DNA from: Epilithonimonas xixisoli
Lineage (GTDB): Bacteria > Bacteroidota > Bacteroidia > Flavobacteriales > Weeksellaceae
Reading direction: 5' to 3'
DNA: 64,000 nt
Assembly (NCBI RefSeq): GCF_004365655.1
Contig: NZ_SOEO01000001.1
Location: forward strand, 558,001-622,000
In this document: positions 17,741-40,406 of the stretch, one piece after another
How positions within the stretch are numbered: position 1 is the stretch's first letter
Layout of the letters: each line of letters starts with the position of its first letter
Notes under the pieces: model-generated
What the model was told of the DNA's origin: nothing
Databases searched by the model: none
The model's input: only the letters and a program-made list of their open reading frames with translations
Made by a program: the position numbers and the translations under genes

Positions 17741-17848
17741 TTGGGCAGCTTTTCCGCCTTCCGCTCCCAATCTTTTTTGCAAGACGATTTTATAATCAAT
17801 AGAACTTTAGTTAATGCAAAAAAGGATTTCCGCTCAAGTCGGGCTGCG
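17741..17848 (+). repeat. Dispersed intergenic hairpin repeat, family A, copy 1
   Basis: It starts TTGGGCAGCTTTTCCGCCTTCCGCTCCC and ends AAAGGATTTCCGCTCAAGTCGGGCTGCG. TTTTTTGCA pairs with TGCAAAAAA inside. A close relative is at 23458-23545, with an inverted one at 41461-41555. It fills most of the hmuV-methyltransferase spacer. Confidence 0.65.
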
Positions 17849-17973
17849 TAAGATTCTCTGTTTAAGAAAGCTACGAAGTTGCGATAGATTGGTAGAAAAT
17901 AGTGAAACAATAACCAAGGTGCCAAGCTCCGAAATGTTATAAGTAGAAAATTTGTGTTCAAAAAACTAAAAAA

Positions 17974-31913: not shown

Positions 31914-32261
31914 ATGAACTTCATTATCCGTTTGCTGATCACCGCGATATCAGCGTTTATCCTTAGCAAAGTCCTTACAGGTGTCCATTTCGACGGCTTT
32001 ATGTCCACAGTTATTTTCGCAATTGTTTTGGGACTTCTAAATTTGATTGTAAAACCAATCTTATCAATCTTGTCATTGCCGATCACGATTTTGACATTGG
32101 GTCTATTTTCCTTTGTTATCAATGCATTGATCATCCTGTTAGCCGATTATCTGATGGAAAGTATGGAAGTGGCAGGCTTCTGGTGGGCACTTTTGTTTAG
32201 TATTTTGCTCTCACTGGTCACATCAGCTTTCTCCACCATCTTCGAAAGCAACGAGGATTAA
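31914..32261 (+). CDS. Small four-helix membrane protein (phage holin 4_2 / YvlD family)
   Basis: The 115-residue protein has four hydrophobic helices. The family markers are NFIIRLLITAISAFILSKVL at the start, GLLNLIVKPILSILSLPITI in the middle and a final FWWALLFSILLSLV. The Pfam name mentions holins, but members such as YvlD are chromosomal membrane proteins with no lysis genes around them, as here. It may belong to envelope stress responses. A strong terminator follows. Confidence 0.8.
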   Translation: MNFIIRLLITAISAFILSKVLTGVHFDGFMSTVIFAIVLGLLNLIVKPILSILSLPITILTLGLFSFVINALIILLADYLMESMEVAGFWWALLFSILLSLVTSAFSTIFESNED

Positions 32262-32308: not shown

Positions 32309-32445
32309 CATTTGGGCAATCCCTCTCCAACGCTTAGGCAACTGCTCGGGCCGGGCTATCCGTTACTATCTTTTTGTTTTTCCCAAAGCTTTTCCTCGCT
32401 CAAAAAACAAAAAGGATATCCACTTCTATCCCTATTGCGGGATTT
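32309..32445. repeat. Intergenic hairpin repeat, family A relative
   Basis: It opens TTTGGGCAATCCCTCTCC, has CGGGCCGGGCTATCCGTTACTATC, and forms a hairpin from CTTTTTGTTTTT and AAAAAACAAAAAG. It then ends TATCCACTTCTATCCCTATTGCGGG. It sits between the terminator and the convergent end of trpA. Confidence 0.6.
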
Positions 32446-32486: not shown

Positions 32487-33221
32487 TTAATTTTTCACAC
32501 TTTCGATAAACGTTTTTCCTTTTGCTTCCCAATCTCCATTTTCCAACAAAATTTTCACGAAAGCTGTTCCTATGATGCCGCCTTGCGCTTTTTCGGTCAC
32601 ATTCTCAAAATCTGATTTATCCTTGATCCCAAATCCGATGAAAACTGGATTTGTCAAGTTTAATGAAGCCAATCTGTTTAGGTAATCTTCGTTCTTCAAT
32701 ACAGCATTTGCATTTCCTGTTGTCGAAGACGAACTCACGGCGTACAAAAATCCAGAACTCAAAGAATCCAAATATTTAATGCGTTCCTCCGAAGTTTCCG
32801 GTGTCACGAGAAAAGTAAAATTCAAACTATATTTCCTAAGAATTTCACCATATTGATTTTCAAATGCAATCGGAGGCAAATCCGGAATAATCAATCCTGA
32901 AACCCCAACTTCTGCACATTTCTGGCAAAAATTCTCAAATCCAAATTGCAAAACAGGATTCAAATATCCCATCAAAATCTTCGGAATCGTCACAGAATCT
33001 TTAACTTTAGCCAATTGCTCGAATAGTTTTTTGATAGACATTCCGTTTTTCAAAGCTAAGGAATGCGCATCCTGAATTACTGGTCCATCAGCAACCGGGT
33101 CAGAATAAGGAATCCCGATTTCCATCATATCTGCGCCGGAATTTTGAATGAGTTCGGCGATTTTTCCTGTGTCTTCCAATTTTGGAACGCCTGCTGTGTA
33201 GTATATGTTTAGTTTTTTCAT
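32487..33221 (-). CDS. trpA: Tryptophan synthase alpha chain
   Basis: The 244-residue TIM-barrel subunit cleaves indole-3-glycerol phosphate to indole and glyceraldehyde 3-phosphate. The catalytic Glu is in MMEIGIPYSDPVADGPVIQ (near residue 36) and the catalytic Asp in GLIIPDLPPIAFE (near 117). The loop SSSTTGNANAV and phosphate-binding GFGIKDKSDFE are also typical. It is the last gene of the trp operon. It is separated from trpB by an 88-bp spacer with an A+T-rich hairpin. Slightly shorter than the usual 255-268 residues but complete. Confidence 0.95.
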   Translation of the reverse strand: MKKLNIYYTAGVPKLEDTGKIAELIQNSGADMMEIGIPYSDPVADGPVIQDAHSLALKNGMSIKKLFEQLAKVKDSVTIPKILMGYLNPVLQFGFENFCQKCAEVGVSGLIIPDLPPIAFENQYGEILRKYSLNFTFLVTPETSEERIKYLDSLSSGFLYAVSSSSTTGNANAVLKNEDYLNRLASLNLTNPVFIGFGIKDKSDFENVTEKAQGGIIGTAFVKILLENGDWEAKGKTFIESVKN

Positions 33222-33309: not shown

Positions 33310-34488
33310 TTAAAGATGTTTCAAATATGTTTCCATATCCTTGTCACCGCGACCGCTGAGGCAAATCACTACAATATCATCTTTTTCAAATTTCTTTTTG
33401 TCCAAAACAGCCAAAGCGTGCGCACTTTCCAAAGCTGGAATGATGCCTTCAATTTTTGTCAGTTCAAAAGCTGACTTCAAAGCTTCATCATCATTAATAC
33501 TGAAAAATTCAGCTCTTTTTTGATTGAAAAGATTAGCGTGCATCGGACCAATTCCGGGATAATCCAAACCTGCAGAAATCGAATGTGGCTCAATAACTTG
33601 TCCGTCTTCAGTTTGCATTACCAGACTTTGACTTCCGTGCAAAATTCCCAAAGTTCCAAGAAAAGTTGTAGCCGCAGATTTCCCTGAATCTACGCCAAAA
33701 CCACCAGCTTCTGCAGCAATGATTTTTACACTTTCTTCATTGACATAATGATAAAAAGTTCCAGCCGCATTACTCCCGCCACCAACGCAGGCAATCACAT
33801 AATCAGGGTTTTCTCTGCTGATTTTTTCGTTCAGTTGTTCTTTGATTTCTTTCGAAATAATACTTTGAAATCTCGCCACCAAATCTGGGTAAGGATGTGG
33901 ACCAACCACACTACCAATAATGTAATGCGTTGTGGAAGGATTATTAATCCAATCTCGCAAAGCTTCATTCACAGCGTCTTTCAAAGTTTTTGAACCGGAA
34001 GTTGCAGGAATCACAGTTGCACCAAGCATCTTCATTCGAGCAACATTGGGAGATTGTCTCGCAATATCAACTTCGCCCATATAAACGATGCACTCCAAAC
34101 CAAGTAAAGCGCAGGCCGTCGCCGTTGCAACGCCGTGTTGACCGGCTCCAGTTTCTGCAATGATTCTGTGTTTTCCTAATTTTTTTGCGAGCAAAGCTTG
34201 TCCCAAAGCATTGTTGATCTTGTGCGCTCCAGTGTGATTCAAATCTTCTCTTTTCAGAAAGATTTGAGTCTGATACTTTTCGCTCAGATTCTTCGCAAAA
34301 TAAAGTGGTGTAGCACGCCCAACATAGTTCTTCAACAAATCCTGAAATTCTGTTTGAAATTCCTCGGACTCAATGATTTGTAAATATTTTTCCTGTAATT
34401 CGGCAACGTTTGGATAAAGCATTTCTGGAACGAAAGCGCCTCCGAAATCGCCGTAATAACCGTTTTTATCTGGGTTTTGAAAGTTCAT
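33310..34488 (-). CDS. trpB: Tryptophan synthase beta chain
   Basis: The 392-residue PLP enzyme condenses indole with serine. The PLP-binding Lys is in [15 protein letters not shown] (near residue 85), the phosphate cup is [10 protein letters not shown], and the substrate-specificity Glu is in [12 protein letters not shown]. Both ends match the TrpB1 family (start [20 protein letters not shown], end [17 protein letters not shown]). It forms an alpha2beta2 complex with TrpA, encoded downstream. It sits between trpF and trpA in the operon. Confidence 0.97.
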
Positions 34489-34505: not shown

Positions 34506-34536
34506 GCCTTGTCAAGGTTTCAAACCTTGACAAGGC
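34506..34536. repeat. Perfect hairpin repeat (CCTTGTCAAGG family) at the trpF 3' end
   Basis: GCCTTGTCAAGGTTT and AAACCTTGACAAGGC form a 15-bp perfect stem around one base. The trpF reading frame ends within it (last residues LVKV and stop). A relative with ACTTTGTCAAAG arms lies at 40150-40181 before trpE. Confidence 0.85.
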
Positions 34537-35179
34537 TGATGAGTTTTTTTATTTTTTCTAAATCTTTATTTCCAGCTTCGATTTCAAATTTTGAATTAAT
34601 ATCGAGAGAAAATGGTTGATGGTTGATGGTTGACAGTTGATGGATATTTTCCAACGAAATTCCGCCACTTAAAAAATACGGAATGGGAATCTCGATTTCG
34701 TTGAGAATATTCCAATCGAAGGTTTTACCTGTACCGCCAAATGCTTTTGAATCGGTGTCAAATAGTAGATAGTTGATAGTTGTTGGTTGTTGGTTGATGG
34801 TTTTTTGTAATTCTTCTGATGTTTGATTTCCAATTCTAATGACTTTTATAATTTCTATTCTTGGATTCAATTTTAAAATGAAATCTTCGGTTTCATCGCC
34901 GTGAAGTTGGATGAAATTCAAGTTTGCTTTTTCAGAAATATCAATAATTTTTTCCAAATCTTCATTCACAAAAACACCAACTTTTCCAGAATGTTCAATG
35001 GTTGAAATCTGTTCTAAGCTTAATTGATTCAAAACAAATCTTGGCGATTTTTCATAAAAGATAAATCCTAAAAAATCAACATTCAAATCAACCAATCCTT
35101 GAATCTGATTGAGCTTTGTTAATCCGCAGACTTTGAGTTGCAATTGGCTTTTGGCTTTTGGCTTTTGGCTTTCAATCAT
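34520..35179 (-). CDS. trpF: Phosphoribosylanthranilate isomerase, invaded by repeats
   Basis: The 219-residue TIM-barrel enzyme converts phosphoribosylanthranilate to CdRP. The catalytic Cys is in LKVCGLTKL (near residue 18) and the catalytic Asp in YLLFDTDSKAFGGTGKTFDW (near 137). The phosphate site is FLSGGISLENI, so it should be active. Four stretches are repeat-derived. The N-terminal SQKPKAKSQ comes from four GCCAAAA-type heptamers; KTINQQPTTINY and HQLSTINHQPF come from internal heptad arrays before the sixth and eighth strands; the last residues come from a hairpin repeat. The stop is 32 bp before the trpB start. Confidence 0.95.
   Translation of the reverse strand: MIESQKPKAKSQLQLKVCGLTKLNQIQGLVDLNVDFLGFIFYEKSPRFVLNQLSLEQISTIEHSGKVGVFVNEDLEKIIDISEKANLNFIQLHGDETEDFILKLNPRIEIIKVIRIGNQTSEELQKTINQQPTTINYLLFDTDSKAFGGTGKTFDWNILNEIEIPIPYFLSGGISLENIHQLSTINHQPFSLDINSKFEIEAGNKDLEKIKKLISLVKV
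34613..34643. repeat. Heptamer array inside trpF, site 1
   Basis: TGGTTGA three times, then CAGTTGA, then TGG. On the coding strand it is read as part of HQLSTINHQPF in the loop before the last barrel strand. Confidence 0.9.
34763..34800. repeat. Heptamer array inside trpF, site 2
   Basis: TAGTAGA, TAGTTGA, TAGTTGT, TGGTTGT, TGGTTGA, TGG: five heptamers with the core TnGTTG. It is read as KTINQQPTTINY on the coding strand, just before the strand that carries the catalytic Asp. Confidence 0.9.
35144..35171. repeat. Heptamer array at the trpF 5' end
   Basis: Four perfect tandem copies of TTGGCTT (GCCAAAA-type on the coding strand). Because 7 is not a multiple of 3, the array is read in all three frames as SQKPKAKSQ. 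Confidence 0.95.
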
Positions 35180-35188
35180 TGGTAATTG

Positions 35189-35968
35189 TTAGATTTTTAC
35201 ATTTGAAATGAATTCTTCGAATTTCTCTCCAGGATTTTCATTTTTCATAAAATATTCGCCCATCAAAAATCCGTCAAATCCTTTTTCTTTTAGAAATTTG
35301 AAATCTTCTTCGTTATAAATTCCGCTTTCTGCAACTGATAGAATATCTTGTGGAAGTTGGTTTTTCAAATTGACAGAATGTTGCAAATCAACTTTGAAAT
35401 CTTTCAAATTTCGATTGTTAATTCCAACAAAATCAACATTTTTATTAATATGTTTTAATTCTTCATCAGAATGTATTTCAAGTAAAACTTCAAGATTGAG
35501 AGAATGCGCTAATTCCGTAAATTCCGAAACCTGAGTTGGTGAAAGACAAGATGCGATTAATAAAATAATATCTGCTCCAATTGATTTGGCTTCGTAAAAT
35601 TGATACTCATCAATCATAAAATCTTTTCTAAGAATCGGAATATTAATGTGATTTCTTACACTCAAAATATCTTCAAAATTTCCACCAAAAAATTCTAAAT
35701 CTGTTAAAATAGAAACCGCGCTTGCTCCGAATTTTTCATATTGAGAAACCACTTCCAAAGGCGAAACTTTATCGTTGATAATTCCTTTGCTTGGAGATTT
35801 TCTTTTGAATTCGGCGATGATTCCGGATTTTGTTTTCAAATTTTCTTTTAAGGAAAAAATTTTCCGGCTAAAAAATTCGGAATCTTTCAATTTTTCAACA
35901 GAAATCTTGGATTTTGAATCTGCAATTTCCTGTTTTTTTCGTTCAATGATTTTATCTAAAATGTTCAT
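35189..35968 (-). CDS. trpC: Indole-3-glycerol phosphate synthase
   Basis: The 259-residue enzyme closes the indole ring from CdRP. Family residues present are FKRKSPSKG (substrate-binding and catalytic Lys, near residue 54), LRKDFMIDEYQFYEAKSIGAD with the second catalytic Lys, VGINNRNLKDFKVDL, and the phosphate site SVAESGIYNEEDF. It is monofunctional; TrpF is encoded separately 9 bp downstream. Length normal. Confidence 0.96.
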   Translation of the reverse strand: MNILDKIIERKKQEIADSKSKISVEKLKDSEFFSRKIFSLKENLKTKSGIIAEFKRKSPSKGIINDKVSPLEVVSQYEKFGASAVSILTDLEFFGGNFEDILSVRNHINIPILRKDFMIDEYQFYEAKSIGADIILLIASCLSPTQVSEFTELAHSLNLEVLLEIHSDEELKHINKNVDFVGINNRNLKDFKVDLQHSVNLKNQLPQDILSVAESGIYNEEDFKFLKEKGFDGFLMGEYFMKNENPGEKFEEFISNVKI

Positions 35969-35995: not shown

Positions 35996-36304
35996 CTAAC
36001 CAATGCTAATTTCATTTATTAAAGCTAGAATTAATAAACAAATTCTTACAAATAAATATATAATTCCTGCCCACATTCCAAACTTTACACGAGGTGAAAA
36101 GTTTTTGTAAGTAGTCGATTGCATATATCTAAATAGAAAAATTAATAATAATATTATGAAAACGATATTTAATATAATTACAACTGTGAAGTTATCTATT
36201 ACAGATTGAGCAAACTTGGTAAATGTTGCTGAACCAACAAATAATAGTAAAATAATAAATGTAAAGTATTCTGACTTGTATAATTTTTGAAAAAAGTTAT
36301 TCAT
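35996..36304 (-). CDS. Small membrane protein inside the trp operon
   Basis: The 102-residue protein has three hydrophobic helices at about 13-33, 37-58 and 74-97, with short charged links (YMQSTTYKNFSPRVKFG). It lies between trpD (35 bp upstream) and trpC (27 bp downstream) in the same direction, and has a good ATG. It is not part of the known pathway, and no family is recognised. A role as a membrane partner or a simple passenger is possible. The gene is A+T-richer than the trp genes around it. Confidence 0.65.
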   Translation of the reverse strand: MNNFFQKLYKSEYFTFIILLLFVGSATFTKFAQSVIDNFTVVIILNIVFIILLLIFLFRYMQSTTYKNFSPRVKFGMWAGIIYLFVRICLLILALINEISIG

Positions 36305-36339: not shown

Positions 36340-37326
36340 TTAATTAATAATACTTTTCAAACTTTGTAACGCTTTTCCACTTTCCAAACTTTCTTTAGCT
36401 AAAGCCAAACAATCTTCATAATTCCCATATTTTCCAGTGTTTTCCAAAGCAATCGTAGCGTTTGCCAAAACCACAGAATTTTGTTCTTCAGTTCCTTTTC
36501 CTTCCAGAATATTGATGAAAGTTTTGGCGGATTCTTCTTTTGAATGACCTCCAAAAATACTTTCAGCTTCTATGTTTTTAAATTTAAAATCTTCGGCTGA
36601 ATAGATTTTTTCGCCTGATTTGTTGATGATTTTTGTATCTCCAGTCAATGAAATTTCGTCGTAACCATCCAAAGCGTGAACGAGCATAAAGTCGCTTTTC
36701 TGCTGTTGCAAAAGGTATTGATAAACGCGGGCAATCTCGAGATTTGCAACGCCAATCATAGAGTATTTTGGTTTCGCAGGATTTACCAACGGTCCTAGAA
36801 TATTGAAAAACGTTTTCAGTCCCAATTGTTTTCTCAAAGGCGCAACAGATTTCAAAGCTGGATGGAAGAGTGGTGCGTGGATAAAACAGATATTTCCTTT
36901 TTCCAAATCGGCTTTCAAATCCTCAGAATTATCTTTGAATTTATATCCCAATTCTTCCAAAACATTGGACGAACCAGAAATGGAAGAAGCTCCGTAATTG
37001 CCTTGCTTGGCTACTTTTTGTCCAGTTCCGGCAACGATAAAACTCGCTAAAGTCGAAATGTTGAACGTATTTTTTCCGTCGCCACCAGTTCCGACAATAT
37101 CAACCAAGTTGTTCGTTCCCAAATCGACCGGTTTTGCCAATTGAAGTAATGCCTCACGGAAACCCGTGAGTTCTTCCAACGTAATGCTTCTCATCAAGAA
37201 AACCGTTACGAAAGCCGTAACCTCGCTTTCATTGAATTTATTTTGTGAGATCTCAGTCAAAATCGCCTTGGCTTCGGCTCTTGTCAAAGTTTGGTGGTTG
37301 AAGAGATATTGTAGTATTTGTTTCAT
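36340..37326 (-). CDS. trpD: Anthranilate phosphoribosyltransferase
   Basis: The 328-residue enzyme adds phosphoribose to anthranilate. The PRPP-binding loop VDIVGTGGDGKNTFNIS (near residue 76) is intact, as are KQGNYGASSISGSSNVLEELG, the anthranilate-site HAPLFHPALKSVAPLRKQLG, and RTFFNILGPLVNP-like text. It is monofunctional, with no glutaminase fusion. It follows an endonuclease-like gene by 36 bp in the operon. Confidence 0.96.
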   Translation of the reverse strand: MKQILQYLFNHQTLTRAEAKAILTEISQNKFNESEVTAFVTVFLMRSITLEELTGFREALLQLAKPVDLGTNNLVDIVGTGGDGKNTFNISTLASFIVAGTGQKVAKQGNYGASSISGSSNVLEELGYKFKDNSEDLKADLEKGNICFIHAPLFHPALKSVAPLRKQLGLKTFFNILGPLVNPAKPKYSMIGVANLEIARVYQYLLQQQKSDFMLVHALDGYDEISLTGDTKIINKSGEKIYSAEDFKFKNIEAESIFGGHSKEESAKTFINILEGKGTEEQNSVVLANATIALENTGKYGNYEDCLALAKESLESGKALQSLKSIIN

Positions 37327-37362: not shown

Positions 37363-38040
37363 TTAGTTTTTCAACTTTTCAATTTTGCAAATTACAGCGT
37401 TGTGGTCAGAGATTTTTCTGTCAATTTTTATCATTTTGTTTGTAACTTTTTTATCGTTTAAAAAATCTTTGTTCATCACGATATGGATAGCGCAATCTTC
37501 ATTTTCCTTTGTTAGAATCTCTAAATTTTCATTTTCAAAAAATAATTTTGTTTCATTAATCACTTTGGTACTTGGATATTTCCAACCTGAAAAAGCAATG
37601 TTGAAATCTCCCGAATAAATGACGTTTCCTTCTAATTTTCTGACTTCATTTTTTTGATTTTCCAAGTCATTTTCAAAATGAAAACCTCTTCCTCCAAAAC
37701 TTCCGATGATGCTTCCGTACAAAATCAGCTGTCCAAATTCAGTACTGATTTTTCCGCAAATTGCTGTGTGCTCATCGTAGGTTTGAAACATTTTTATGAT
37801 AGGATATTTTGAAAAAATGCTTACTCGATTTTCTTTCTCTTTATATTTTTGATTTTCGTGAAATTTTGGTAATTCTATTGAGTTTAAGCTAAAATACTCA
37901 GTTCCAAAATCTATTGTTAAATTGGTTTCTGTCAAAAAAATCAAATCAGGATTTTCCTCTGAAATTAATTTTTTTATAAAATCCAGTTCAGCATTTTTAT
38001 TAATTTTCAATCGCTCAATATTCCAGCTTAAAATTTTCAT
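37363..38040 (-). CDS. Endonuclease/exonuclease/phosphatase-family protein inside the trp operon
   Basis: The 225-residue protein has all core EEP residues: the N-terminal Asn in ILSWNIERL, metal Glu in LIFLTETN, GDFNIAF with the catalytic Asp and Asn, and the terminal SDHNAVI with the His-Asp pair. No signal peptide is seen, so it is cytoplasmic. It may act on nucleic acid or a phosphorylated small molecule. It starts 1 bp from the trpG stop, so it is surely co-transcribed with trp genes although no link to tryptophan is known. Confidence 0.8.
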   Translation of the reverse strand: MKILSWNIERLKINKNAELDFIKKLISEENPDLIFLTETNLTIDFGTEYFSLNSIELPKFHENQKYKEKENRVSIFSKYPIIKMFQTYDEHTAICGKISTEFGQLILYGSIIGSFGGRGFHFENDLENQKNEVRKLEGNVIYSGDFNIAFSGWKYPSTKVINETKLFFENENLEILTKENEDCAIHIVMNKDFLNDKKVTNKMIKIDRKISDHNAVICKIEKLKN

Positions 38041-38041
38041 T

Positions 38042-38668
38042 TTAATTCGTTAAAAAATTCTCTAAAATCTTTTTTCCATCAGGCGTCAAGATACTTTCCG
38101 GGTGATATTGTACGGCGTGAACATCGTAAGTTTTATGTCTCAAACTCATAATCATTCCGTTTTTGTCAACGCTTGTGATTTCCAATTCGAAAGGGAAATC
38201 ATCAGGATTTACCGCCCACGAATGATATCTACCAACTTCCAAAGTTTCTGGTAAACTGTTGAAAATCTGGTGCGCATTGATTTGAATAGATTCTGTTGCG
38301 ACGCCGTGGTAGATTTCGGAAAGATTGATTAAACTTCCACCAAAAGCTTCTGCTATAGCTTGTTGTCCAAGACAAACGCCGAAAATTGATTTTGTTGGTG
38401 CATATTTTTTTATTAATTCTAACAAAATTCCTGCTTCTTCTGGAATTCCTGGTCCGGGAGAGAGAATGATTTTATCATATTTTTCAATGTCTTCCAAAGC
38501 GATTTGGTCATTACGGAAAACGTCTACTTCTGAACCGACAATTTGTTCGATGATCTGAACGAGATTGTAAGTAAAACTGTCATAATTATCTAAGACTAAT
38601 ATTTTTTCCTCCCCAACCCCTCCAAAGGAGGGGCTTTCATTGAGTTTATTTTTATTCATTTTTAACAT
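38042..38668 (-). CDS. trpG: Anthranilate synthase glutaminase subunit
   Basis: TrpG releases ammonia from glutamine for TrpE. The class I amidotransferase triad is visible: Cys in IFGVCLGQQAIAEAFGG, then His and Glu in VQYHPESILTPDG. SPGPGIPEEAG is also typical. The first 22 residues (MLKMNKNKLNESPSFGGVGEEK) precede the usual start ILVLDNYDSFTYN. They are encoded partly by a CCCCTCC/GGAGGGG hairpin repeat, so the start has been moved upstream by repeat capture. The start lies 39 bp after the trpE stop. Confidence 0.95.
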   Translation of the reverse strand: MLKMNKNKLNESPSFGGVGEEKILVLDNYDSFTYNLVQIIEQIVGSEVDVFRNDQIALEDIEKYDKIILSPGPGIPEEAGILLELIKKYAPTKSIFGVCLGQQAIAEAFGGSLINLSEIYHGVATESIQINAHQIFNSLPETLEVGRYHSWAVNPDDFPFELEITSVDKNGMIMSLRHKTYDVHAVQYHPESILTPDGKKILENFLTN

Positions 38669-38707: not shown

Positions 38708-40126
38708 TTATATTTTCTCTGCTTTTAAAACGGCTTTTTTCAAAGCGCCTAATTTGTTGTTCACTTCCTGCAATTCACTTTCGGCAACGGATTTGGCTGT
38801 GATTCCAGCGCCGGCTTGATAAAACAATGTGTTGTTTTTACTCAAGAAAGTTCGAATCATAATCGCCTGATTACAACTTCCATCAAAACCTACAAAACCA
38901 ATACAACCTGCGTAATAACTTCTGGAAGTTTTCTCGTGTTCATCAATCAATTGCATTGCTCTGTATTTTGGAGCACCACTTAAAGTTCCTTGTGGGAAAG
39001 TGGTTGCAATCATTTCATACGGATTCTGATTTTCTTTCACATCGGCAACCACTTCTGAAACCATATGAATCACGTGAGAGAAAAAGTGAATTTCTTTCAG
39101 TTTTGAAACGGTTGTGTTTTTCCCGTGAATGCTCAAATCATTTCTTGCCAAATCTACCAACATCATATGTTCTGCATTTTCTTTCGGGTCTTTTTTGAGC
39201 TCTTCTGCGGATTCCAAATCTTTTTCGATGTTTCCTGTTCGTTTGAAAGTTCCTGCAATTGGATGAATAATGGCTTTACCATTTTTGATAATCAACTGAC
39301 TTTCCGGACTAGAACCCATTAATTTGTAATCACCATAATCGAAGAAAAATAGGTACGGCGAAGGATTGATATTTCTCAAAGCACGGTAAACATTGAACTC
39401 GTCACCTTGGAATTTCTGTTCAAATCTTCTGCTCAAAACTAACTGGAAAACGTCGCCACGGAAACAATGTTTCTTCGCAAATTCTACGGATTCCAAGAAT
39501 TCTTCATCTTTCAAATTCGAAGTTTCTTCTGCGGTAATTTCGAATGGGAAAACTGGTGCGTTTTTTTGATTGATTATGCTTTCCAATGTTGAAAGTTCTG
39601 ATTTTAAACCATCGATTTTATTTTCAATAAGGAACATTTCGTCGTTGTGATGATTAATTGCAATCACGTATTGATAAATTCTGTAACGCATCAACGGGAT
39701 TTTATTTTCCTCAGATTGTTCCTTGAATTTGATATTCTCAAAAAACGGAATCGCATCATAACTTGTATATCCGAAAAATCCCTGTGCTTGTTTTCCAATC
39801 TCGTGGTTTGGTTTTTCGCATTTGAAACAATTGGAAAATTCCTGAAGCAAATCAGAAAGTTTTTCATTTTTCAGATTAATTTTCTGAGGATTTTCAAGCG
39901 GAAATTTCAATTCGGCTTCGTCGTAATTTCGGATTTCGATTCCAGCAATGGCGTTGACACCAATGAAAGAAAACGAATTTTCAGAATTCTGATTTCCTGC
40001 ACTTTCCAAAAGAATCGTGTCCCGAAACTGGTCACGAAGTCGCAGGTAAATCCCAATCGGTGTGTAGAGGTCTGCCAAGCGGGATTTGACGACAGTTTTT
40101 ATTTTTATTGTTTGATGATTTATCAT
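38708..40126 (-). CDS. trpE: Anthranilate synthase component I
   Basis: The 472-residue synthase converts chorismate to anthranilate with TrpG. The feedback site carries the LLES motif (TILLESAGNQN, near residue 38), so tryptophan inhibition is likely. Catalytic stretches are AEHMMLVDLARNDLSIHG, TFPQGTLSGAPKYRAMQLIDE, and YAGCIGFVGFDGSCNQAIMIRTF. It is a full-length stand-alone component, the first structural gene of the operon. The trpL leader and attenuator lie 56-197 bp upstream. Confidence 0.96.
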   Translation of the reverse strand: MINHQTIKIKTVVKSRLADLYTPIGIYLRLRDQFRDTILLESAGNQNSENSFSFIGVNAIAGIEIRNYDEAELKFPLENPQKINLKNEKLSDLLQEFSNCFKCEKPNHEIGKQAQGFFGYTSYDAIPFFENIKFKEQSEENKIPLMRYRIYQYVIAINHHNDEMFLIENKIDGLKSELSTLESIINQKNAPVFPFEITAEETSNLKDEEFLESVEFAKKHCFRGDVFQLVLSRRFEQKFQGDEFNVYRALRNINPSPYLFFFDYGDYKLMGSSPESQLIIKNGKAIIHPIAGTFKRTGNIEKDLESAEELKKDPKENAEHMMLVDLARNDLSIHGKNTTVSKLKEIHFFSHVIHMVSEVVADVKENQNPYEMIATTFPQGTLSGAPKYRAMQLIDEHEKTSRSYYAGCIGFVGFDGSCNQAIMIRTFLSKNNTLFYQAGAGITAKSVAESELQEVNNKLGALKKAVLKAEKI

Positions 40127-40149: not shown

Positions 40150-40181
40150 ACTTTGTCAAAGATTTGAAACTTTGACAAAGT
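40150..40181. repeat. Perfect hairpin between the trp attenuator and trpE
   Basis: ACTTTGTCAAAG (40150-40161) and CTTTGACAAAGT (40170-40181) with an 8-base loop. It is related to the hairpin at 34506-34536. It could protect the 5' end of mRNA that escapes attenuation. Confidence 0.75.
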
Positions 40182-40218
40182 GAAAAAAAAAGACTTCAAC
40201 AAAAAATGTCGAAGTCTT
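40182..40218 (-). terminator. trp attenuator terminator
   Basis: On the minus strand AAGACTTCGAC (40218 to 40208) pairs with GTTGAAGTCTT (40200 to 40190) with one mismatch, followed by a run of nine T. It begins 30 bp after the leader peptide stop and ends 56 bp before trpE. Its 5' arm can pair instead with leader bases 40280-40271, giving an antiterminator. Confidence 0.9.
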
Positions 40219-40248
40219 ATTATGATTGAGTTATAGTTAGTTCAGAAT

Positions 40249-40323
40249 TTAGAACACCGATAAGTCTTTCAGACCCGACAAAGAGTTTGAAAGCCACCAC
40301 CAGTTATTGTTCATTGTTTTCAT
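40249..40323 (-). CDS. trpL: trp operon leader peptide with three consecutive Trp codons
   Basis: A 24-codon frame starts at ATG 40323 and reads MKTMNNNWWWLSNSLSGLKD then LSVF and stop. Codons 8-10 are TGG TGG TGG (40302-40294), and it lies directly upstream of a terminator and trpE. When charged tRNA-Trp is scarce a ribosome should stall here and favour the antiterminator. Bases CTTTCA (40293-40288) and TGAAAG (40271-40266) can form a protector hairpin when there is no stalling. The gene is too short for routine gene calling. Confidence 0.92.
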   Translation of the reverse strand: MKTMNNNWWWLSNSLSGLKDLSVF

Positions 40324-40376
40324 CTGTTGATAATAATTTTTTTAAAAGGACAGATGGAACTGTCGTTTCATTGGGA

Positions 40377-40406
40377 CAAATTTAGAAATGATTTTTAATT
40401 CTGCAA
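40377..40406 (-). promoter_or_regulatory. trp operon promoter
   Basis: On the minus strand TTG (40406-40404) and TAAATTTG (40384-40377) are separated by 19 bp. This matches the Bacteroidota TTG-N17-23-TAnnTTTG pattern. The predicted start is near 40371, about 48 bp before the leader ATG. Confidence 0.65.

Follow-up and report, generated by a model that had tools for sequence, protein, structure and literature searches.

A probable ribosome-mediated attenuator of the trp operon in Epilithonimonas xixisoli, from a divergent branch of Bacteroid-trp leaders in Weeksellaceae

The trp operon and its leader region

The window analyzed here, a 64,000-nt stretch of the 3.39-Mb genome of Epilithonimonas xixisoli, carries on its minus strand a trp operon, trpEGDCFBA with two extra genes (40126-32487). 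The trp genes and their Pfam matches are trpE (38708..40126; PF04715 and PF00425), trpG (38042..38668; PF00117), trpD (36340..37326; PF00591 and PF02885), trpC (35189..35968; PF00218), trpF (34520..35179; PF00697), trpB (33310..34488; PF00291) and trpA (32487..33221; PF00290). The extra genes, on the same strand, are a non-trp ORF of the endonuclease/exonuclease/phosphatase family between trpG and trpD (37363-38040) and, between trpD and trpC, an ORF of 102 aa that matched nothing in Pfam (35996-36304). The closest relatives of trpE belong to Epilithonimonas (Weeksellaceae, Bacteroidota), with TrpE identity of up to 96%. Although the trp genes were complete, a search of the genome recovered neither HisG (PF01634) nor IlvD (PF00920), which may indicate auxotrophy for histidine and branched-chain amino acids. 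Two Flavo-1 RNAs (RF01705, Rfam), which are not known to have a function, lie on the minus strand at 17746-17853 and 32345-32440; the latter ends the trp operon region, 46 nt past the stop codon of trpA.

An earlier note on this DNA had described a three-stem attenuator with a 24-codon leader before trpE, and we found all of its elements, on the minus strand, essentially where the note had placed them. The leader ORF (MKTMNNNWWWLSNSLSGLKDLSVF; 40249..40323, with ATG at 40323 and stop at 40251-40249) is conserved in relatives and contains three consecutive Trp codons (TGGTGGTGG, 40294..40302). The protector (1:2) hairpin (40256..40304), supported by the minimum-free-energy (MFE) fold and by covariation of its core, has the core that had been proposed, CUUUCA (40293-40288) with UGAAAG (40271-40266), but it is longer than the note had it; the MFE fold extends the hairpin outwards through a helix of 40304-40297 with 40263-40256, and the protector therefore includes Trp codons. 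In the antiterminator, region 2 (UGUCGGGUCU, 40271..40280) pairs with AGACUUCGACA (40217-40207) over 10 pairs with the single bulge previously described, although the best duplex has one G-U pair and not two. The terminator (3:4) hairpin (40190..40218) has a 12-bp stem with arms 40218-40207 and 40201-40190, and its T run holds the expected nine T (40191-40183), two of which are paired. The MFE fold suggested in the note, computed for 40371-40182, gave z = -4.45, and none of 200 shuffles was equally stable.

The promoter that had been placed upstream of the leader is also present, on the minus strand, as a TTG -33 element (40404..40406) and, after a 19-nt spacer, TAAATTTG (40377..40384), a -7 element of the Bacteroidota sigma-A promoter by the consensus given in the available text of PMC9723704. 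From the position of this box and the purine preference at the start, transcription is predicted to begin at an A, the fifth base after the -7 box (40372). Two features on the minus strand were absent from the earlier note. One is a 48-nt insertion between promoter and leader (40324..40371), flanked by ATGAAA repeats and absent from most relatives, which carries an upstream mini-ORF (MKRQFHLSF-stop; 40342..40371). This mini-ORF has nine codons plus a stop codon, begins 1 nt downstream of the predicted start of transcription and is in frame with the Trp leader. The 24-codon ORF had been taken as the first to be translated, but here the mini-ORF, at the predicted 5' end of the transcript, precedes it. 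The other is a second hairpin directly after the attenuator terminator (CTTTGTCAAAG...CTTTGACAAAG, 40151..40180), a dispersed repeat found at 10 places in the genome (11 hits, one palindromic) and lying 10 nt or less after the end of an ORF in three of the eight places examined; possibly it is terminator-like or REP-like.

Conservation and covariation of the leader

Our main comparison sample comprised 80 trpE loci (561,944 bases), in which we counted a leader where trpE was preceded by two or more Trp codons in a row together with a T-tailed hairpin. By this measure, leader and terminator lay upstream of trpE in 77 of the 80 loci, that is, in 56/56 Weeksellaceae loci and in 21 of 24 others, which are named as Saprospiraceae, as Flavobacteriaceae or less precisely and are nearly all Bacteroidota, so that the leader frame on which the earlier note had staked its claim was kept with its Trp run throughout the family sample. 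We take L002-L057 to be Weeksellaceae from their record titles and the general taxonomy of their genera, of which Epilithonimonas alone was looked up. No such leader with a terminator was found upstream of trpE in L058 (Cytophagales MAG), L059 (Raineya) or L060 (Microscillaceae MAG). A search of the family genomes found trpE (E <= 1e-60) in 263 of 296, and leader and terminator were present at all 29 further trpE loci examined from these genomes and at all 60 sampled loci of genus g20 (the first 60 g20 entries of the trpE listing), one of which has a GTG start; these loci are not all new, because 18 and 9 of them, respectively, share a 120-nt leader stretch with a named locus.

The 80 loci contained 161 short ORFs with adjacent Trp codons (WW), 137 of them followed by a terminator-like hairpin and all of these within 450 nt upstream of trpE (a triple-W leader is counted twice); no WW leader with a terminator was found away from trpE in the 561,944 bases. 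The bare motif is not unique, since the same kind of scan of the window returned one other match, at 32181, inside the ORF at 31914-32261. The hairpin before trpE might be a plain terminator of an upstream transcript, with a Trp-rich ORF beside it by chance, and a gene on the same strand (41227-40760) could supply such a transcript. However, the gene and the leader are separated by a stretch with a promoter-like sequence, the leader-terminator pair was found only upstream of trpE among the 80 loci, and paired changes were seen in the protector and the antiterminator, so that we give this explanation almost no credence.

The covariation check that the earlier note had proposed revealed paired changes in all three stems within the Weeksellaceae. 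We assessed the stems on an alignment of 57 Weeksellaceae leaders, 55 of them distinct; the counts are of cells from related sequences and not of independent events. In the terminator 98.5% of cells were paired and 3/12 pairs had changes on both sides; the corresponding values were 90.2% and 3/10 for the antiterminator, and 82.1% and 5/6 for the protector core, whose outermost pair fails in 35/55 sequences. The covariation score of each stem was reached by none of 500 shuffles, and sliding the arms by 1-3 columns always lowered the scores and left fewer paired cells in all three stems. When only pairs with two-sided changes were counted, however, 21/500 shuffles matched the antiterminator and 1/500 each the terminator and the protector, and some slid versions equalled or beat the observed count (up to 5 for the terminator, 4 for the antiterminator).

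We further analyzed the antiterminator as a duplex. In the window, its energy was matched by 3 of 100 shuffles; across the sample it fell within the best 5/100 in 44/57 Weeksellaceae leaders (window included) and, among the locus groups labeled FlavoA, FlavoB and Bact in this analysis, in 7/7 FlavoA, 4/5 Bact and 0/4 FlavoB loci, as well as in 0/5 Saprospiraceae loci. Outside the best 5% were thus 13/57 Weeksellaceae leaders and all nine Saprospiraceae and FlavoB loci. The peptide encoded at the antiterminator varies (LSGLK, FQSLEH, SCRV-stop), and the sequence has changed while its pairing to the terminator arm was kept; the maintenance of pairing across different peptide contexts speaks for selection on the RNA. 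When regions 2 and 3 were swapped between groups (at most 12 loci per group), the cognate pair was the best in both row and column for Weeksellaceae and FlavoA only; FlavoB and locus L061 preferred foreign partners, and region 3 of Bact paired slightly better with region 2 of Weeksellaceae and FlavoA than with its own. The conserved LSCC tail of the g20 leaders was considered as a sign of selection on the peptide but was not accepted as such, because RNA pairing explains the tail equally well; depending on position, 37 to 46 of the 46 distinct sequences allow Asn codons close to the start to pair with Cys codons close to the end.

Because all three stems show paired changes in the Weeksellaceae, ribosome-mediated attenuation is the best explanation of this region. 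A structured leader ending in a terminator is also used by other Trp sensors, and a TrpR repressor, TRAP protein, T-box or riboswitch might control the operon with the leader ORF being incidental. Against this, no TrpR (PF01371) was found in a search of the genome (the same search was positive in 2/14 control genomes), no T-box or riboswitch family reached Rfam gathering scores in the whole window, and the Trp run and its frame were kept in 56/56 relatives; control by another sensor appears very improbable to us. We give a probability of about 0.93 to the view that the trp operon is controlled here by ribosome-mediated attenuation of transcription and that the leader belongs to a Weeksellaceae branch which diverges within the Bacteroid-trp leaders.

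Relation to known leaders and modeled switching

Amino-acid attenuators, including those of Bacteroidetes, were reportedly described by Vitreschak et al. in 2004. Bacteroid-trp (RF01692) was presented as a cis-regulatory candidate in Bacteroidetes by Weinberg et al. 2010 (PMC2864571), and the available text of a 2019 paper (PMC6414381) reads it as a trp leader in Flavobacterium psychrophilum. The available text of PMC9723704 reports strong indications that amino-acid operons of the same flavobacterium are preceded by attenuators with leader peptides, a likeness to the present case; the word 'trp' does not occur in its main text. The earlier note had claimed no novelty, which was appropriate, as the kind was already known in the phylum (RF01692, PMC2864571).

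In the window, Rfam gave no match at the leader at the gathering threshold, RF00513 (Trp_leader) included, and at E 10 only low-scoring matches of unrelated families. RF01692 (cut-off 49 bits) had six weak matches in the E. xixisoli genome, none at the leader even at E 10, and exceeded its cut-off in 27/296 genomes of the phylum and 3/40 of the family. Matches directly upstream of trpE were found in six Weeksellaceae genomes (G019, G023, G026, G030, G036 and G039), of which G026 alone was above the cut-off (49.8 bits), the others having E-values of 0.0006 to 0.5. In the reverse direction, R1, a model built from our Weeksellaceae leader alignment, reached E < 0.001 at all but one of the 12 RF01692 loci that were fetched, the exception (L132) having 0.32 (rough E-values). 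Since RF01692 scores sister leaders, mostly weakly, and R1 scores RF01692 loci, the leader in the window appears to be a divergent member of the Bacteroid-trp kind. R1 had one convincing place in the E. xixisoli genome (135.7 bits; the next had 31.7 bits and E 0.06), and thus no convincing paralogous trp leader was found there with this model. The fetched matches share with the window the phylum, a WW or WWW leader and, in 11/12 cases, trpE alongside, but their terminator and antiterminator sequences differ, and the gap from -7 box to ATG is at least 16 nt in 9/12 of them. One RF01692 match in another Bacteroidota family (L130:1475-1597, minus strand; leader MRSILVNTYWWRYLQLNKS) precedes an ORF that by eye resembles trpB and not trpE. 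The attenuator is not a new kind, as RF01692 covers trp leaders of the phylum; it is real, well conserved and was correctly interpreted.

Like the leader described here, trpL of Escherichia coli (RF00513) has consecutive Trp codons, three exclusive stems and a T-tailed terminator. Unlike E. coli trpL, the leader in the window has its stop about 20 nt beyond region 2, and most relatives examined are predicted to have a 5' UTR of 0-1 nt. By the available text of PMC7298713, trpL of Sinorhizobium meliloti has a leaderless leader ORF, as predicted here for most relatives examined, and attenuation without transcriptional repression; it belongs to another phylum, and action in trans is a feature of the Sinorhizobium RNA (rnTrpL) and peptide.

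The predicted sequence of events would run as follows. If charged tRNA-Trp is abundant, or if the leader is not translated, region 2 would be held by the protector, the terminator would form and transcription would end near 40183. A ribosome stalled on the UGG codons would cover the 5' arm of the protector and leave region 2 free, which starts past the modeled edge of the ribosome, 13 nt from the last Trp codon; region 2 would then pair with the terminator's 5' arm while the 3' arm is still to be made, and the operon would be read. In silico, on the assumption that the footprint blocks everything as far as 15 nt past the first P-site base, the fold switched in this manner. In the model without a ribosome, P(1:2) was 0.99 and the terminator formed, whereas a ribosome placed on any one of the UGG codons gave P(2:3) of 0.92 before region 4 existed. 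At equilibrium the full leader always formed the terminator, stalled ribosome or not, and the choice must therefore be kinetic, falling while the leader is being transcribed. With the 15-nt footprint, a ribosome at the stop codon left region 2 free (P(2:3) 0.97 before region 4), so that termination in Trp-replete cells would need prompt ribosome release.

The predicted transcript start and the 48-nt insertion

The promoter pattern TTG-N18..22-TAnnTTTG was present in 48/77 leader regions compared to 37/3850 letter shuffles. In 48/56 Weeksellaceae loci the box TAnnTTTG was followed after 4-5 nt by the leader ATG (L002 is among the 48 only because its insertion reads in frame), as it was in 7/7 loci of FlavoA, a separate group consisting mostly of Flavobacteriaceae MAGs. 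The gap was 4 nt in 60/60 g20 loci, the GTG-start leader included, and L055 has a GTG at 6 nt from the box. Other gaps were seen in L005, L016, L029, L030, L035 and L036, a gap of 7-10 nt in nine loci of the Bact and FlavoB groups, and no box in L017 and five Saprospiraceae loci. According to the available text of PMC9723704, sigma-A boxes of F. psychrophilum lie at -12 to -5; transcription would then start at the fifth base after the box and, with a spacing of 4-5 nt, the 5' UTR would be 0-1 nt. Among 50 distinct rows with this spacing, 48 had a purine at the predicted +1, mostly with pyrimidines before it, as did 31 of the 33 rows in which the +1 falls outside the ATG (a few rows, that of the window among them, are mini-ORF starts). 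In most relatives examined the leader peptide would probably be read from a message that begins with AUG or one base before it, and the ribosome would load on the first bases to leave the polymerase without a Shine-Dalgarno sequence. Such sequences are little used, and not expected, in Bacteroidota.

The spacing might also reflect mere shared ancestry, with the real start elsewhere. The loci are related, an ATG at 4-5 nt follows 34/666 other TAnnTTTG strings in the loci as well, some of the loci lack the box or have the wider gaps given above, and among the 12 fetched RF01692 loci the gap is 16-22 nt in nine, 5 nt in two and 1 nt in one. On the other hand, the same gap recurs in the separate FlavoA group, GTG replaces ATG in one genome at that place, and the purine preference and the published box position agree with a start at the leader codon; we consider the shared-ancestry explanation unlikely. 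That Weeksellaceae and at least one further flavobacterial group have a leaderless Trp leader, and that the 48-nt insertion has turned this in the lineage of the window into a 5'-terminal mini-ORF followed by reinitiation or internal initiation, is a reading to which we give even odds. Only 5.5% of mapped mRNAs are leaderless in F. psychrophilum (available text of PMC9723704), and the available portions of PMC9723704, PMC7366714 and PMC7298713 contain no description of a leaderless leader peptide in Bacteroidota.

The start of the Trp leader in the window lies 49 nt from the predicted transcript start, unlike that of the leaderless relatives; the nine-codon mini-ORF would occupy the 5' position, and the Trp leader would be reached by reinitiation or internal initiation. 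Homologues of the insertion were found in L002, L005, L016 and L102, with near or exact copies of these in L084, L085, L090 and L103, and no second copy was found in the E. xixisoli genome at up to 3 mismatches. The carriers are scattered on the trpE DNA tree (one gene), a pattern that would agree with repeated loss of an old insertion through recombination between the short repeats, or with exchange. The insertion is fused in frame to the leader in L002, its stop overlaps the leader start in L005, and its start codon is lost in L016 and L102; this variation among carriers speaks against a conserved role of the mini-ORF. Other stretches between promoter and leader were observed in L029, L030 and L036, and in the one of L030 a mini-ORF begins 5 nt downstream of the -7 box.

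These results extend a catalogued, little-tested attenuator class to a family that the Rfam model largely misses, with a three-stem anatomy that is here supported by covariation. The prediction of a leaderless start most deserves an experiment; if it is true, it shows how timing-critical leader peptides start in a phylum with little Shine-Dalgarno use. The insertion in the window would then be a natural test of whether start-site loading tunes attenuation, for which species with and without the insertion offer a ready comparison.
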